Assembly: GCA_938084675.1 (NCBI GenBank)
Contig: CALKGM010000024.1
Coordinates: 1-37,796 of the forward strand
Length of the DNA: 37,796 nucleotides
From: Candidatus Poseidoniaceae archaeon
GTDB lineage: Archaea; Thermoplasmatota; Poseidoniia; Poseidoniales; Poseidoniaceae
Reading direction: 5' to 3'
In this document: positions 33,395-37,796 of the stretch, in pieces
Position numbering within the stretch: position 1 is the stretch's first letter
How the letters are laid out: each line of letters begins with the position of its first letter
Translations under genes and position numbers: made by a program
The notes under the pieces: model-generated
The model's input: the letters and a program-made list of their open reading frames with translations, nothing else
Databases searched by the model: none
What the model was told of the DNA's origin: nothing

Positions 33395-33628
33395 TCATGC
33401 ACGTGGGTAGGGACGAATAGGGCGGACTGCAACCCGTTGTGAATACTTAATTTGTTTACAAGGGTGTTTAGCATAACCCCTCGTGAACATATGCGATTCA
33501 TTTATCCACTTCACTAGATCACTAAATCTTGTTGCGTACGATTCAATAGAGGCCACTGCGAACCCCTGCAGACACTTATTTTGAAGGCATGGGAGATTAT
33601 AGGGAATCCCTTGTAAAAAGGAATTCAT
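33395..33628 (-). CDS. Small repeat protein coupled to the upstream unknown gene
   Basis: 77 residues. The ATG at 33628 overlaps the stop of the upstream gene as ATGA, the main support for it being real. Two 20-residue units (about 12-31 and 55-74) share the pattern PCxQxKxxQxxAVxxIxxY with a 43-residue period. The matching DNA copies near 33421-33465 and 33550-33595 are also visibly related. It may be a remnant of a longer tandem-repeat gene. Function unknown, and a non-coding repeat cannot be excluded. Confidence 0.4.
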   Translation of the reverse strand: MNSFLQGIPYNLPCLQNKCLQGFAVASIESYATRFSDLVKWINESHMFTRGYAKHPCKQIKYSQRVAVRPIRPYPRA

Positions 33629-34263
33629 GATTTGCCTTGATTCATTAACTCGTGATAAACGCGATATAAAGGGGCACGCGCCTCTTCATAATGCTTATCG
33701 CTTGGGTTTGAGCCGTTAAACCATTTTTCATCAATGGTTGATTTCTCAAAAAACCTTGGTTTGTTTTCGAAGAGGAACAAGAGAGCGAGGTCAACTGCTC
33801 TGGTGCCTCCTATGTTCGATGCAACATAGTGAGTAATCTTAAGTGAATGCTTATCACTAAAAGATGTGAATATCTTCTGGAAAAAAATACTGCAGTGATT
33901 CACAAGTTGGCTGTAATCATAAACACCTAAAACACTGAATGGAAATACAGAAAGAAACTTTTTTCCACGTGTATTCGAGGGATAGTCTTCGTCATGACGT
34001 AACGTTGTGGTTATGTGTAACTCAACATCATCATAGTCGGAATAAGATTCAGCGAGTCTTTCAATCATGGGGTTAGCAAATTCATTCATCCACCATTTCA
34101 GTTGATCTTGGGTTGTTTTGTCCCTAGCCTTCCAATATTGGAATTTGCTTTTTTCACAATCCGTAGGCCCCTTTGCGCAACACTCACAAAAAATATCCAC
34201 CCAAGAAATTACGACTTTATCCATAGGATTGCTATAACGGTAGAGTCTATAAACGGTTGCCAT
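33625..34263 (-). CDS. Uncharacterised 212-residue protein
   Basis: The ATG at 34263 opens a soluble protein rich in aromatic residues. A Cys group near residues 27-40 (CECCAKGPTDC) might bind metal. No signal, membrane helix or known motif is present. It is AT-richer than the core genes and lies at the edge of the accessory island, divergent from the RNA/Cys-rich cluster. It overlaps the next small gene by 4 nt. Confidence 0.6.
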   Translation of the reverse strand: MATVYRLYRYSNPMDKVVISWVDIFCECCAKGPTDCEKSKFQYWKARDKTTQDQLKWWMNEFANPMIERLAESYSDYDDVELHITTTLRHDEDYPSNTRGKKFLSVFPFSVLGVYDYSQLVNHCSIFFQKIFTSFSDKHSLKITHYVASNIGGTRAVDLALLFLFENKPRFFEKSTIDEKWFNGSNPSDKHYEEARAPLYRVYHELMNQGKS

Positions 34264-34409
34264 CTAGTTAGAAATGCCCGGCAACGGGCCGAAGACCGCA
34301 AGGGACCCTGAGAGTAACTTCTTGGGGCACATACGCAGAGTTCAATGAAATGGCCAATTTTAACGATGGACATATTGAAGAAATTCAGAGAATCTTAGAT
34401 TCTCTAAAA
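34264..34409. other. Upstream hairpin region before the first structured RNA
   Basis: It holds a GNRA-type hairpin (GCCCG, loop GCAA, CGGGC) at 34276-34289 and an inverted repeat of two 9-nt arms, AGAGAATCT and AGATTCTCT, at 34387-34405. Neither has an equivalent before the second RNA copy. They may belong to the 5' end of the transcript, to an operator, or to the divergent gene's leader. Confidence 0.35.
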
Positions 34410-34647
34410 GCCACATTGGACGCCTGCGTCTGAATGTACTGTGGCAGAAGAGCATCCGGTGGAGTAAAATCCACCGGATGAAACTGAACCACAGCGTTGC
34501 TGGTAGTTTCTTTTCGAAACTACCGGCGACAATTACCCTTCAGATCTGAAGACAAGGCCGCTCTTCCAGAGCATTACTGGTCCTTTACCTACCACTCTGC
34601 AGAGAAAAGGTGAGCGTTGATGAGAGCCTAATCAACGCTTCATAACT
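34410..34647 (+). ncRNA. Candidate structured RNA, copy 1
   Basis: Helices in order: P1 34410-34415/34440-34445 enclosing a small hairpin; P2 34453-34463/34470-34480 (11 bp, perfect); P3 34499-34510/34516-34527 (12 bp with one G.U); P4 CTTCA/TGAAG at 34538-34551; P5 GCTCT/AGAGC at 34560-34572; P6 CCTTT/AAAGG at 34582-34586/34606-34610; P7 34613-34621/34631-34639 (9 bp). Single-stranded CTGAACCA (34484), TACCC (34534), CAAGGCC (34553), loop GAGAGCCTA (34622) and CATAACT (34641) are shared with copy 2. AGGC of CAAGGCC could pair with GCCT of the P7 loop as a pseudoknot. I do not recognise it as tRNA, RNase P, SRP or a common riboswitch. It lies in the leader of a Cys-rich gene. Confidence 0.7.
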
Positions 34648-34650
34648 CCA

Positions 34651-34749
34651 GTTTCGTATAGAAAAAATGTTACGAAACATTACCCCCCACGAGAGGGCGC
34701 ACTCATTTGCGCCAACACATCAAGACCGAGCGAATGCTACGCATGTAGC
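34651..34749 (+). other. Three further leader hairpins after RNA copy 1
   Basis: GTTTCGTA/TACGAAAC (34651-34678, 8 bp), GGCGCA/TGCGCC (34696-34713, 6 bp) and GCTAC/GTAGC with loop GCAT (34736-34749). They connect the conserved core to the ribosome-binding-site hairpin and are absent from copy 2, so they look like copy-specific linker or expression-platform structure. Confidence 0.45.
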
Positions 34750-34769
34750 GGCAAACTGGGTTGCTAAAT

Positions 34770-34792
34770 TGAACACCAAAGAGAGGTGTTCA
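34770..34792 (+). promoter_or_regulatory. Shine-Dalgarno-sequestering hairpin
   Basis: TGAACACC (34770-34777) pairs with GGTGTTCA (34785-34792), an 8-bp stem with a 7-nt loop. The GAGGTG ribosome binding site of the Cys-rich gene lies in the loop and 3' arm, 5-6 nt before its ATG at 34795. The fold would block initiation. This is the layout of a translational switch downstream of the structured leader. Confidence 0.55.
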
Positions 34793-34794
34793 TA

Positions 34795-35151
34795 ATGGCA
34801 AAATGCGGTTTGAATGGTTGTAAAAACCCTGTTCCTAATGATTGCGACAAGTCCTTGTGCGGAGCTTGTTGTGACGGGATTGGTTGTTCTCGACACCTGC
34901 CTGAATGTGGGCGCTGTGGAGAAAAAACCGAAGAGGACTTCTGCGAAGAATGTGAGCAATGCGAGTCGTGCTGTGATTGTACCCGATGTCCGAATTGTAA
35001 TCGCAAAGATTTCGATAGCCTCTGTGATCATTCGCAGGACTATTGCGATATTTGTGATGGACTTGAGAATGTAGTTACTGGCGTGGGTCATGTTTGCGAC
35101 AGTTGTGCAGATGGTCTTTATCACGGCGGACAGGACAACTCTGGATATTAG
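34795..35151 (+). CDS. Cysteine-rich small protein A
   Basis: 118 residues with 22 Cys, mostly in CxxC or CxC pairs (for example LPECGRCGE, EECEQCESCCDCTRCPNC), spread from residue 4 to about 103. Such spacing suits several zinc ribbons or knuckles, or metal-cluster binding. The tail (CDSCADGLYHGG) is Gly/Asp/His-rich and matches the paralogue at 36126 (CESCDVGLYGS). There is no signal peptide or membrane helix. GAGGTG precedes the ATG and is covered by a hairpin. The NrtS-like gene begins 9 nt downstream. It could sense metal or redox state, or bind RNA or protein; function unknown. Confidence 0.8.
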   Translation: MAKCGLNGCKNPVPNDCDKSLCGACCDGIGCSRHLPECGRCGEKTEEDFCEECEQCESCCDCTRCPNCNRKDFDSLCDHSQDYCDICDGLENVVTGVGHVCDSCADGLYHGGQDNSGY

Positions 35152-35160
35152 GTGATTTTT

Positions 35161-35442
35161 ATGATGAAAGATTGGATGGTTTTGTGTTTGTCGGATGATA
35201 TCCCGATTATGGCGGTTAAGACTTCCTTGATTGTAGGAACCATTCTAGTCTTGATTAACCACTGTGATGCGCTGCTCGAAGGAAATTACCCTCCAGTTTG
35301 GAAGGTTCTTTGCACTTACATCGTGCCTTACTGTGTTTCCACATTTGGAGCAGTCTCACAAAAACAATTCACACAACAGAACACTTCCCCAGGTGGGGAT
35401 TATTTTCCAATTGCGAGTAAGGGTGATGAGCAATGGAACTAG
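35161..35442 (+). CDS. nrtS: NrtS-like nitrate/nitrite transporter
   Basis: About 93 residues. MKDWMVLCLSDDIPIMAVKTS leads into helix VGTILVLINHCDALLEG, then WKVLCTYIVPYCVSTFGAV. The LIN-x-x-DALL and VPYCVSTxGAV motifs and two-helix layout match the NrtS family, known from marine cyanobacteria and other bacteria as low-molecular-weight nitrate/nitrite transport proteins. ATGs at 35161 and 35164 are both possible; GGTG lies 6 nt before the first. It is operonic with Cys-rich protein A. The assignment is from motif memory. Confidence 0.65.
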   Translation: MMKDWMVLCLSDDIPIMAVKTSLIVGTILVLINHCDALLEGNYPPVWKVLCTYIVPYCVSTFGAVSQKQFTQQNTSPGGDYFPIASKGDEQWN

Positions 35443-35456
35443 GAGATATAGGGTTT

Positions 35457-35689
35457 GAGTTGGGACCTACACGGTTGATCACCGTTCACCAATCCCCAAC
35501 TCCCCGGGGTCTTCGGACCCCGGGCCCGCTGAACCATGACTCCGTCGGCAGGTCTTTCGGGACCTGTCGGCGGCCTACCCATAGTCGTTTTACGGCAAGG
35601 CCATCCCTCTCCGGGATTTTGGATAGTTTGCCTTTCCAACCTAGGAAAAAGGTATGTGCTGAGGAGAGCCTACTCAGTGCAGCATAACT
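35457..35689 (+). ncRNA. Candidate structured RNA, copy 2
   Basis: Same helix order as copy 1 with different paired bases: P1 35457-35464/35495-35502 enclosing hairpin ACGGT/ACCGT (35471-35485); P2 35503-35511/35516-35524 with a C(UUCG)G loop; P3 35542-35554/35561-35573 (13 bp, two G.U); P4 GTCG/CGGC between TACCC and CAAGGCC; P5 ATCCC/GGGAT at 35603-35617; P6 CCTTT/AAAGG at 35631-35635/35648-35652; P7 35656-35663/35673-35680 (8 bp, two G.U) with loop GAGAGCCTA. CTGAACCA (35529), TACCC (35576), CAAGGCC (35596) and CATAACT (35683) are invariant. The wobbles and tetraloop fix the plus strand. It ends 13 nt before the next Cys-rich gene. Confidence 0.7.
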
Positions 35690-35702
35690 TGCATTAGAAA
35701 AT

Positions 35703-36119
35703 ATGAAACAATGTAACGATTGCAACAAAAAGGAATGTACAAACGGAAGGGAATGCAAATGGAAACATAGTGATACGTGCTGGTTTTGTCATTGTAATGA
35801 TAAGAACCCAATCAGTTGTCATTGTTATGATGATTGCTCAGACACGGTTGTCAATAATTGTGAAATATGCAAAGAGCCAGTATGCGAAAGTCACGCCTCT
35901 GAATGCGAACTCTGTTCAAAGAATTCGTGCATATATTGTGCACAAAACTGTGAAAATTGTGGTGATTGGTTCTGTAATATCCACATGGTTCACGTGCCAA
36001 ATTTCGAGATACAAGACTTATGCACTGAGTGTTATGCATCTATGAGTGATATTGTTCATGGAGATTATTCTGATGCAGATGGGCATGACCATGGAGAGGA
36101 TTTTTATTTTGGATATTGA
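35703..36119 (+). CDS. Cysteine-rich small protein B
   Basis: 138 residues with 22 Cys, mostly CxxC or CxC (MKQCNDCNKKEC, TCWFCHC, NCEICKEPVC, ECELCSKNSC, NCENCGDWFC) plus several His. The treble-clef or zinc-knuckle pattern and an acidic His/Gly tail ending FYFGY relate it to proteins A and C. No Shine-Dalgarno sequence is visible before the ATG; the structured RNA copy 2 ends 13 nt upstream. Its stop lies within the ribosome binding site of protein C. Confidence 0.75.
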   Translation: MKQCNDCNKKECTNGRECKWKHSDTCWFCHCNDKNPISCHCYDDCSDTVVNNCEICKEPVCESHASECELCSKNSCIYCAQNCENCGDWFCNIHMVHVPNFEIQDLCTECYASMSDIVHGDYSDADGHDHGEDFYFGY

Positions 36120-36125
36120 GGTGAT

Positions 36126-36503
36126 ATGATGTCGGATTGTGAACATTGCGGAGAGGAATTATGCGTACATTTTCATTTCAGGGGAGGGTGTAAATGGGGT
36201 TCAGACTGCAGAAAATGCCATTGCTCAGATTGTGAATACTGCGGTGAAGAAATTGATGAATCTTGCCCAGATCATGAAGACATTTGTCATTCATGTTGTG
36301 AATGCAATTACCCCTCATGCTCATGTTGTGGCAATGTCACAAATGATTTCACAAGATGTGAAAATTGCGGAACTGCATATTGTAACGCAGATGAGTGTGG
36401 AGGAGATGGTCTCGAATTGTGTGAATCCTGTGATGTGGGGTTGTATGGAAGTTATGCAGATTCAGACCATCATCCGAGTAACCCAAATCATTGGAAAAGA
36501 TAG
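36126..36503 (+). CDS. Cysteine-rich small protein C
   Basis: 125 residues with 23 Cys (SDCEHCGEELC, CRKCHCSDCEYCGEE, CHSCCECNYPSCSCCG, RCENCGTAYC, LCESCDVGLYG). It is a paralogue of proteins A and B, closest to A in the CxxCxxGLYG tail. ATGs at 36126 and 36129 both follow GAGGTGA; the second has the better spacing. It starts 6 nt after protein B, so B and C are co-translated. Confidence 0.75.
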   Translation: MMSDCEHCGEELCVHFHFRGGCKWGSDCRKCHCSDCEYCGEEIDESCPDHEDICHSCCECNYPSCSCCGNVTNDFTRCENCGTAYCNADECGGDGLELCESCDVGLYGSYADSDHHPSNPNHWKR

Positions 36504-36537
36504 TTAGTTCTTGAATTAAGTTGATTTTCTTATACAC

Positions 36538-36611
36538 AAGGGCTCCCGTTGTATCCCCATACGAACACAACGGTACCGTTCGTATGACCATCCATACGAA
36601 GGGGGGCCCTT
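36538..36611 (+). other. RNA-like element with two exclusive folds
   Basis: An outer 10-bp stem (36538-36547/36602-36611, one G.U on the plus strand) encloses either hairpin CATACGAAC/GTTCGTATG (36558-36566/36578-36586), or two hairpins: CCGTTGT/ACAACGG (36546-36552/36567-36573) and TTCGTATG/CATACGAA (36579-36586/36593-36600). The second state is a near-gapless three-way junction. It sits between convergent genes, 34 nt after Cys-rich protein C and 4 nt beyond the radical SAM stop, so it could be a shared 3' end structure. Confidence 0.5.
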
Positions 36612-36615
36612 TGAA

Positions 36616-37796
36616 TTAGTAAATCTCGGCTTCTTTTGTAACTGGGCTCAAAATCTTCTTTGCAAATGGTTGGAAGCGTTCAAATTGAATTATAGACTCA
36701 TCACCCAATTTCAGTAAGTCTTCAAGGAATAATGGATGATTATTCTCTGTATCTTTTAGTGATTGGGAAATTTTACTCATCTTCAACCAATCTTCATGTG
36801 AAAATGTATCTGATTTTATGACTACTGGCATTGAATCTTCTGATTCAACAAGACCCCAGTTCTGCTTATTCTTTTCGGTATCAGTGCCCCTAAGTAACAT
36901 CAAAGGGAAAGCCTTGATTACAGGAATTTTCATGAAAAGACACCACTCTATTGTCTTAATGAATGAGGTTAAGGTTTGTTCAGGCAAGCCGTATATCACA
37001 GATACTTCGTGTCCTATTCCAGCATCTCTGACCTTGATTATGTTCTCTTGCACCTTTTTCATGTTGTTCTTTCGATTAACTGCTGCACCCTCTGTTTGAT
37101 GAATGGTCTGCAAGCCGAATTCTAAACGAACATTGAGCATTGAAGCATAATGAATGAATTCGTCGGTAATCATTTCTGCACGGCATTGTAACGATAGACG
37201 TCCTTTGAATTCTCTTTTATGAAACTGCTTTAGAATCTCAACCGCTTGCTTGCCAGAATTAAAAATTGGATCCAATACCGCAATATCTTCAACATTATTT
37301 TTACAAAATAAATCAATCTCTTTTTCAATTCGGCCGAAATGAAATTTATGTTTTGGGAGTCGAGCTCCAGCTTCTTTGTGTTGACAAAAGCCGCAATTAA
37401 ATTGGCATCCGCGCTGGGTTTCCCAACGAACAAAGGGTTGGTTCTCTAAATTAATCACCCCCTCAAGCCAGGGGGATGGGCAAAGGTCGAGGTCTACAAC
37501 TGTCTGTAGTTCTAAGTCATAATCTCCTGCAAAATGGACTCCTGTGTGACTTATTTTACCAGATTTCGTCAGAAGTTCAGCTAAGGCGAATTCACCATAA
37601 CCTCGAACAAAAATATCTGCCTCCGGATAAAAACTCTCAAGGCCACTTTCAGAATATGAAATTTGAGGCCCTCCTAGAATTATCCGCCCCCCGAAATTGT
37701 TAGAGCGAAGTGATGTTAAGATTGATTTGATTACATCTTCGCACCAAACATAAACACCAATTGCAATATCTGTGTTTTCACCGAGTTTAGATAACT
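36616..37796 (-). CDS. B12-binding radical SAM protein (5' end cut by the right edge)
   Basis: The frame is open from its stop at 36616 to the window end, giving about 393 residues. The first GTG often taken as a start (37458) lies inside the gene. Upstream residues read as a cobalamin-binding-type Rossmann domain (IILGGPQISYSESG, ADIFVRGYGEFALAELL). The radical SAM motif follows as RGCQFNCGFCQ (CxxxCxxC for the [4Fe-4S] cluster), then a TIM-barrel with FGLQTIHQTEG. This layout matches B12-dependent radical SAM enzymes, which methylate or rearrange unactivated carbons; there is no visible B12 His motif in the fragment, so cobalamin use is inferred. Substrate unknown. AT-rich like the rest of the island. 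Confidence 0.85.
   Translation of the reverse strand, partial: LSKLGENTDIAIGVYVWCEDVIKSILTSLRSNNFGGRIILGGPQISYSESGLESFYPEADIFVRGYGEFALAELLTKSGKISHTGVHFAGDYDLELQTVVDLDLCPSPWLEGVINLENQPFVRWETQRGCQFNCGFCQHKEAGARLPKHKFHFGRIEKEIDLFCKNNVEDIAVLDPIFNSGKQAVEILKQFHKREFKGRLSLQCRAEMITDEFIHYASMLNVRLEFGLQTIHQTEGAAVNRKNNMKKVQENIIKVRDAGIGHEVSVIYGLPEQTLTSFIKTIEWCLFMKIPVIKAFPLMLLRGTDTEKNKQNWGLVESEDSMPVVIKSDTFSHEDWLKMSKISQSLKDTENNHPLFLEDLLKLGDESIIQFERFQPFAKKILSPVTKEAEIY

Follow-up and report, generated by a model that had tools for sequence, protein, structure and literature searches.

Two stretches of DNA towards the end of a contig from a Candidatus Poseidoniaceae archaeon raise two questions: are they copies of one structured RNA that belongs to no known class, and what might such an RNA do in front of the cysteine-rich (Cys-rich) genes that follow it? 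The window, by which we mean the whole stretch of 37,796 nucleotides that was analysed (contig CALKGM010000024.1, assembly GCA_938084675.1), had been interpreted earlier from its letters alone, and this sequence-only reading proposed two covarying copies of an RNA with seven helices.

Two copies of one structured RNA

Both copies lie on the plus strand, each ~235 nt long and ~1 kb apart, and the coordinates proposed for them are correct:

34409-34647, plus strand: RNA copy A, from P1 to CATAACT (fold z-score; match of covariance model R1, described below)
35457-35689, plus strand: RNA copy B, from P1 to CATAACT (matches of R1 and of the A-only model R2)
A 34484-34491, B 35529-35536, plus strand: identical block CTGAACCA
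A 34534-34538, B 35576-35580, plus strand: identical block TACCC
A 34553-34559, B 35596-35602, plus strand: identical block CAAGGCC
A 34622-34630, B 35664-35672, plus strand: identical block GAGAGCCTA, the loop of helix P7
A 34641-34647, B 35683-35689, plus strand: identical block CATAACT

As had been claimed for these loops and linkers, all five blocks are identical and near-equally spaced in A and B, while the sequence between them differs; conservation between the copies is concentrated in the blocks. In a MAFFT alignment, 120 of the 239 ungapped columns are identical. The further claim that the single strands are the conserved part holds for the five blocks but not overall, since the share of identical columns is much the same at paired (36/64) and at unpaired positions (54/93).

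Folding energies set both copies apart from shuffled sequence, with a z-score of -8.96 for copy A (34400-34680; none of 200 shuffles equally good) and -3.80 for copy B (35440-35710; one of 200). The minimum-energy fold of the A core (34484-34647) includes P3, P4, P5, P6 and P7. A covariance model made from copy A alone and the minimum-energy fold of A alone (R2) detects copy B over 35529-35689 with 55.9 bits (E 3.2e-20). The A sequence without structure detects it with 26.8 bits (E 1.2e-7), and the resulting structure gain of 29 bits is approximate because the two kinds of model are weighted differently.

Compensatory change was assessed on a hand-fitted alignment of A and B with N spacers, which leans towards structure and comprises 44 pairs in helices P2, P3, P5, P6 and P7. 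Here, all 85 testable cells pair, 14 of the 44 pairs are changed on both sides, and none of 500 shuffles did as well; when the partners were slid by 1-3 columns, only 36-45% of cells paired. P2 and P5 align only after shifts of a few columns. Simulations of neutral drift on single segments gave p values of 0.0005-0.021 for P2, P3, P5 and P7 in both directions, the one for P5 being weakened by an offset of one base in the B segment. When the fold of each copy was mapped onto the other through the structure-blind MAFFT alignment, only the B-to-A direction reached significance (p = 0.004, against p = 0.26 for A to B). We therefore confirm, on covariation between two sequences of one genome, that A and B are homologous structured RNAs with compensatory changes. 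The A-only model and the hand-fitted alignment, together with the Rfam search described below, support the proposal that this is a structured RNA with a function, that its stems are compensated and that it falls outside Rfam. Pair counts favour the plus strand (8 G.U against 0 A.C), although the minus strand reaches a folding energy nearly as low.

Architecture of the RNA

Seven helices had been proposed. P2, P3, P5 and P7 are well supported, as they differ in sequence and pair in both copies, whereas P1, P4 and P6 are weaker. All helices listed are on the plus strand:

34410-34445, plus strand: A P1, outer stem 34410-34415/34440-34445, inner stem 34419-34423/34426-34430; -14.8 kcal/mol when folded alone
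35457-35502, plus strand: B P1, outer stem 35457-35464/35495-35502, inner stem 35471-35475/35481-35485; pairing probability 0.93 and 0.94
34453-34480, plus strand: A P2, hairpin, covaries with B; probability 1.00
35503-35524, plus strand: B P2, hairpin with UUCG loop; probability 0.95
34496-34530, plus strand: A P3, long hairpin; probability 1.00
35542-35573, plus strand: B P3, long hairpin; probability 0.99
34560-34572, plus strand: A P5, hairpin; probability 0.40
35603-35617, plus strand: B P5, hairpin, present in B-only minimum-energy folds
34586-34612, plus strand: A P6 (34586-34590/34608-34612), weak; probability 0.20
35629-35654, plus strand: B P6 (35629-35633/35650-35654); probability 0.81
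34613-34639, plus strand: A P7, 9 pairs, loop GAGAGCCTA
35655-35681, plus strand: B P7, 9 pairs, loop GAGAGCCTA; probability 0.89

In both copies P1 is a hairpin whose stem is opened by a large internal loop; the architecture is alike, but the sequences cannot be aligned. The outer stem of A P1 has a pairing probability of 0.07 and is outcompeted within the whole copy, in which 34439-34447 pairs with the CTGAACCACAG block instead. In A, P4 forms a short hairpin (probability 0.75). When B is folded by itself, the matching stretch has other pairing partners, and the comparison of the two folds did not show P4 to be common to both. In the hand-fitted alignment, the 14 pairs of P3 include three two-sided and four one-sided changes, and P5 has four of its five pairs changed on both sides. 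P6 is kept in both copies with one-sided changes only, and P7 keeps every pair through three two-sided and two one-sided changes. A candidate pseudoknot would join AGGC of CAAGGCC to GCCU in the loop of P7, and both sides of this contact are invariant between A and B.

Search for relatives

The statement that the RNA belongs to no known class is upheld by Rfam 15, of which none of the 4227 families matched the window at the gathering cut-off; over 34250-35760, nine matches up to E 10 were at chance level and all far below cut-off. ARAGORN found no tRNA or tmRNA gene in the window. A covariance model built from both copies (R1) scores 170.7 bits on A (over 34484-34647) and 155.4 bits on B. Beyond these, R1 found nothing in 318 genomes of the order (next best 15.8 bits) and no further relative in a sample of 389 genomes of the phylum (the same 15.8-bit match); the two sets overlap, the searches used Infernal's stricter filters, and a model of two sequences could miss distant relatives. 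This search for homologues had been suggested as a check on the sequence-only reading. As it returned none in the genomes searched, a wider family is not shown.

Five weak R1 matches in other genomes of the order (13.1-15.8 bits) were rejected, since four span about one helix and one is spread but gapped. Three of them are near-identical copies (97%) of one place within a single genus, and in the two of these three for which ORFs were examined, the match precedes, on the opposite strand, a putative gene for ribosomal protein S13. Five pattern scans were run on viral contigs and one on genome contigs. The pattern GAGAGCCTA..CATAACT occurs in 86 viral and at least 119 genome-contig stretches, which, besides the window's own copies, form at most five pairs around the loop among the matches listed. 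Among the matches listed for CAAGGCC..GAGAGCCTA (at least 120 viral stretches), the best stem around the P7 loop has four pairs. CTGAACC..TACCC..AAGGCC also occurs in at least 120 viral stretches, and among the matches listed the hairpins after AAGGCC have up to seven pairs and are, by eye, unrelated. AAAAGGT..GAGAGCCTA gave 88 viral stretches with a best stem of five, and CTGAACCA..TACCC..CAAGGCC gave 28, none of which matches R1. When R1 was applied to the 445 loci listed for the first three of these patterns, the best score was 20.3 bits (E 0.0015) and the next 12.5. The best locus (L427) matches P3, CAAGGCC and P5 only, skips P6-P7 and lies inside a 430-aa frame, and was taken as a chance match. 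A DNA search of phages and plasmids found no relative. Within the collections searched, the RNA is supported as an orphan, that is, a new structured family of two members.

The insert and its Cys-rich genes

The genes around the two copies are the following:

34667-34795, plus strand: 42-codon frame, starting 19 nt after copy A, its stop overlapping the next ATG (TAATG)
34795-35151, plus strand: Cys-rich ORF 1, 118 aa
35161-35442, plus strand: NrtS-like small protein, 93 aa (NF038050, E 7e-13, 48.3 bits, cut-off 25)
35703-36119, plus strand: Cys-rich ORF 2, 138 aa, starting 13 nt after copy B
36126-36503, plus strand: Cys-rich ORF 3, 125 aa

The position upstream of Cys-rich genes had been noted correctly: copy B directly precedes ORF 2, and copy A reaches ORF 1 via the 42-codon frame, whose stop overlaps the ORF 1 start. 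The three Cys-rich proteins are alike, the other two being 22% and 39% identical to ORF 1, and have no Pfam or NCBIfam family match. A profile of them, run at E 1e-4 on the 318 genomes of the order, retrieved only the three ORFs themselves. Their own genome holds two RNA and three Cys-rich ORF matches, and the other 317 hold no such ORF and RNA scores below 16 bits. Protein searches, each in some collections only, found no relatives. For the five ORFs of the insert, a single Pfam match stayed below cut-off, NrtS was the sole NCBIfam match, PHROGs gave one match at E 0.2 and PADLOC none. An AlphaFold model of ORF 1 is uninformative (pLDDT 34), and the best match of the Cys-rich profile to solved structures, a FYVE-type zinc finger at E 0.012, is only a lead.

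The RNAs and Cys-rich genes lie on a strain- or lineage-specific insert that starts near 33408, because a near relative, 98% identical in the 586-aa gene left of the insert, matches the window to 33407 and then diverges, because the divergent 212-aa ORF at 33625-34263 was found in its own genome only among the 29 searched for the genus, and because GC content is lower in the insert (0.43 over 33408-36536, against 0.49 over 1-33407). The contig ends 1.3 kb past the last Cys-rich ORF.

Several other features were observed nearby. The homologue of the NrtS nitrate/nitrite transporter sits between the RNA copies and is an unexpected partner for Cys-rich genes. Between the 212-aa ORF and copy A, 34265-34350 has a modest fold (z -2.08 on the plus and -1.70 on the minus strand), and a perfect 8-pair hairpin, AGAGAATC-tta-GATTCTCT, stands just 5' of copy A (34387-34405), none being seen before copy B. 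The stretch between copy A and ORF 1 (34648-34797) folds strongly (z -3.92), and part of a Shine-Dalgarno-like site, GAGGTG, lies within its hairpin GAACACC..GGTGTTC (34771-34791) just before the ORF 1 ATG. At 36537-36613 there is a possible dispersed structured element of ~80 nt (AAGGG..CCC.TTG - GGGTACCG(T/A)T - hairpin - AAGGGGGGCCC), found also at loci L586-L589 and L591-L594, with its right half only in L590. Nine aligned stretches of it have GGTACCG and GGGG in common and, by eye, also a 5' GGG..CCC arm. The pattern GGGTACCG..GGGGSCC occurs in 8 of the 29 genus genomes, and a reversed control is at least as frequent, so the pattern alone proves nothing. At 36616-37794 follows a radical SAM protein, for which a B12-binding match stayed below cut-off. 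Matches to it occur in two other of the 29 genus genomes: in G097 as a 31-aa tail at a contig end (90% identical) and in G116 as a weak match (20% identity). The match of G097 to the window starts at the palindrome of the ~80-nt element (36569), as a recombination boundary might.

Discussion

What could such an RNA do? The reading that we prefer, though we put it a little below an even chance, is that both copies represent a new family of large structured RNAs acting in cis as 5' leaders that control translation. An mRNA encoding a Cys-rich protein, which probably binds metal, would start with each of the copies, on an insert that is mobile or strain-specific. The P7 loop and the conserved linkers would fold into a core, which the AGGC/GCCU contact might close, and this core would bind something: most likely the Cys-rich product, in a feedback comparable to that of ribosomal-protein leaders, or else a small ligand or metal ion. 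Binding at the core would then alter access to the start codon and, with it, translation. That the RNA is transcribed as a leader, that it governs translation and what it binds are inferred from the arrangement of sequence and genes; its position before the ATGs and its co-occurrence with the Cys-rich genes are observed.

We lean towards the leader because both copies end shortly before an ATG in a TAGAAAA context, because copy B lies next to a Cys-rich ORF and the TAATG overlap connects copy A with another, and because the RNA and the Cys-rich family co-occur, among the genomes of the order only in their own. From the end of CATAACT to the ATG there are 19 nt in A and 13 nt in B, with an alignable, A-rich context (TAGAAAA-ATG). 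Moreover, the predicted pairing of 34439-34447 in copy A with either the 5' end (34410-34415) or the CTGAACCACAG block might be a switch, which we count in favour of a leader. Several points count against it: no counterpart of this alternative pairing was found by eye in B, ORF 1 begins 147 nt beyond copy A, the 42-codon frame in between may be a chance frame, and no Shine-Dalgarno-like sequence was seen just before the ORF of copy B. The association with genes, coming from two copies in one genome, is not independent evidence.

Less probable than the leader are, in descending order, an RNA acting in trans, a ribozyme and a recombination element made of DNA. A trans-acting noncoding RNA, possibly part of an RNP with the Cys-rich proteins, would merely lie upstream of them, the second copy being a tandem duplicate. 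The large size and many helices would suit this, as would the conserved blocks, which stand in linkers all along the RNA and not only near the start codon, and the 147 nt that separate copy A from ORF 1. A highly expressed noncoding RNA of 229 nt, Tan1, has also been reported from Marine Group II (PMC5069720). We consider such a role unlikely, if well worth keeping in mind, given that the spacing and context of the ATG are kept in both copies and that a conserved host RNA would be expected in other genomes of the order, where it was not found. Somewhat less likely again is a more ambitious proposal: the RNA would represent a new class of large RNAs in archaea, with a core that is knotted, and would be carried on an insert together with a zinc-finger-like protein family of its own. 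RNA and protein would then make up an RNP module, regulatory or catalytic and self-contained, tandem-duplicated and co-diverging.

Ribozymes, too, can combine variable helices with single-strand blocks that are strictly conserved, and the RNA might be self-cleaving or otherwise catalytic and process transcripts of the insert. This strikes us as improbable, as no Rfam family, ribozymes included, matched at the gathering score and only chance-level matches appeared up to E 10 in 34250-35760. Alternatively, the copies could act not as RNA but as folded single-stranded DNA belonging to a mobile element, for instance as a recombination site that marks gene cassettes; they are directly oriented and stand between genes of a strain-specific insert. 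Integron attC sites carry the boxes R' GTTRRRY and R'' RYYYAAC, but both boxes are absent from both copies. Moreover, the only Phage_integrase match (PF00589) of the assembly, which is 92% complete, is on contig C9 and not on that of the window (C24), and a simple palindrome is not expected to hold long conserved single-strand blocks. We regard a DNA element as slightly more doubtful than a ribozyme. Finally, a coding origin of the conserved 3' part is rejected as most improbable: copy B does lie within an open 84-aa frame (35433-35687), and A and B share a frame from GAG AGC CTA through the TAA of CATAACT, but a TGA breaks this frame in copy A and the changes track base pairing, with 14 pairs altered on both sides.

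Large multi-helix RNAs are rare in archaea, and orphan ones have often been identified later as riboswitches, as ribozymes or as the cores of RNPs. The present case is limited to two copies, both from a single genome. As they form a natural pair whose helices are compensated, the fold is already constrained in part, and the equally orphan protein family that adjoins the RNA offers a concrete candidate for a binding partner. This suggests that inserts of uncultured marine archaea may carry RNA families missing from current catalogues.

Comparison with known RNAs

No paper on structured RNA under the name Poseidoniales was found in the literature searched; the relevant one there concerns Tan1 of Marine Group II (PMC5069720). 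Another source is described as a survey of 104 motifs (PMC2864571). Riboswitches and autoregulatory leaders of the ribosomal-protein type resemble the present RNA as large structured RNAs directly upstream of start codons, whereas the latter has no Rfam match and no known ligand and exists in two copies only. A riboswitch is recognised as a conserved aptamer that precedes functionally linked genes in many genomes; here, the upstream position was found, in one genome. Large orphan noncoding RNAs, among them OLE, GOLLD and ROOL, are similar in size, complexity and orphan function. They differ from the present RNA in that the latter has no Rfam match, and it is smaller than GOLLD or OLE.

The 318 genomes of the order presumably include Thalassoarchaea, and the other 317 gave no R1 match above 16 bits. 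This silence across the order would argue against identity with Tan1 (Thalassoarchaea ncRNA 1), within the limits of a two-sequence model that could miss distant relatives. As described, Tan1 is an RNA of marine group II Euryarchaeota with unknown function and, in contrast to ours, is reported with five homologues of 75-79% identity in Candidatus Thalassoarchaea metagenomes (PMC5069720). Compared by description rather than by sequence, the present RNA and Tan1 are nonetheless alike in length, in their complex proposed structure and in host group (PMC5069720).
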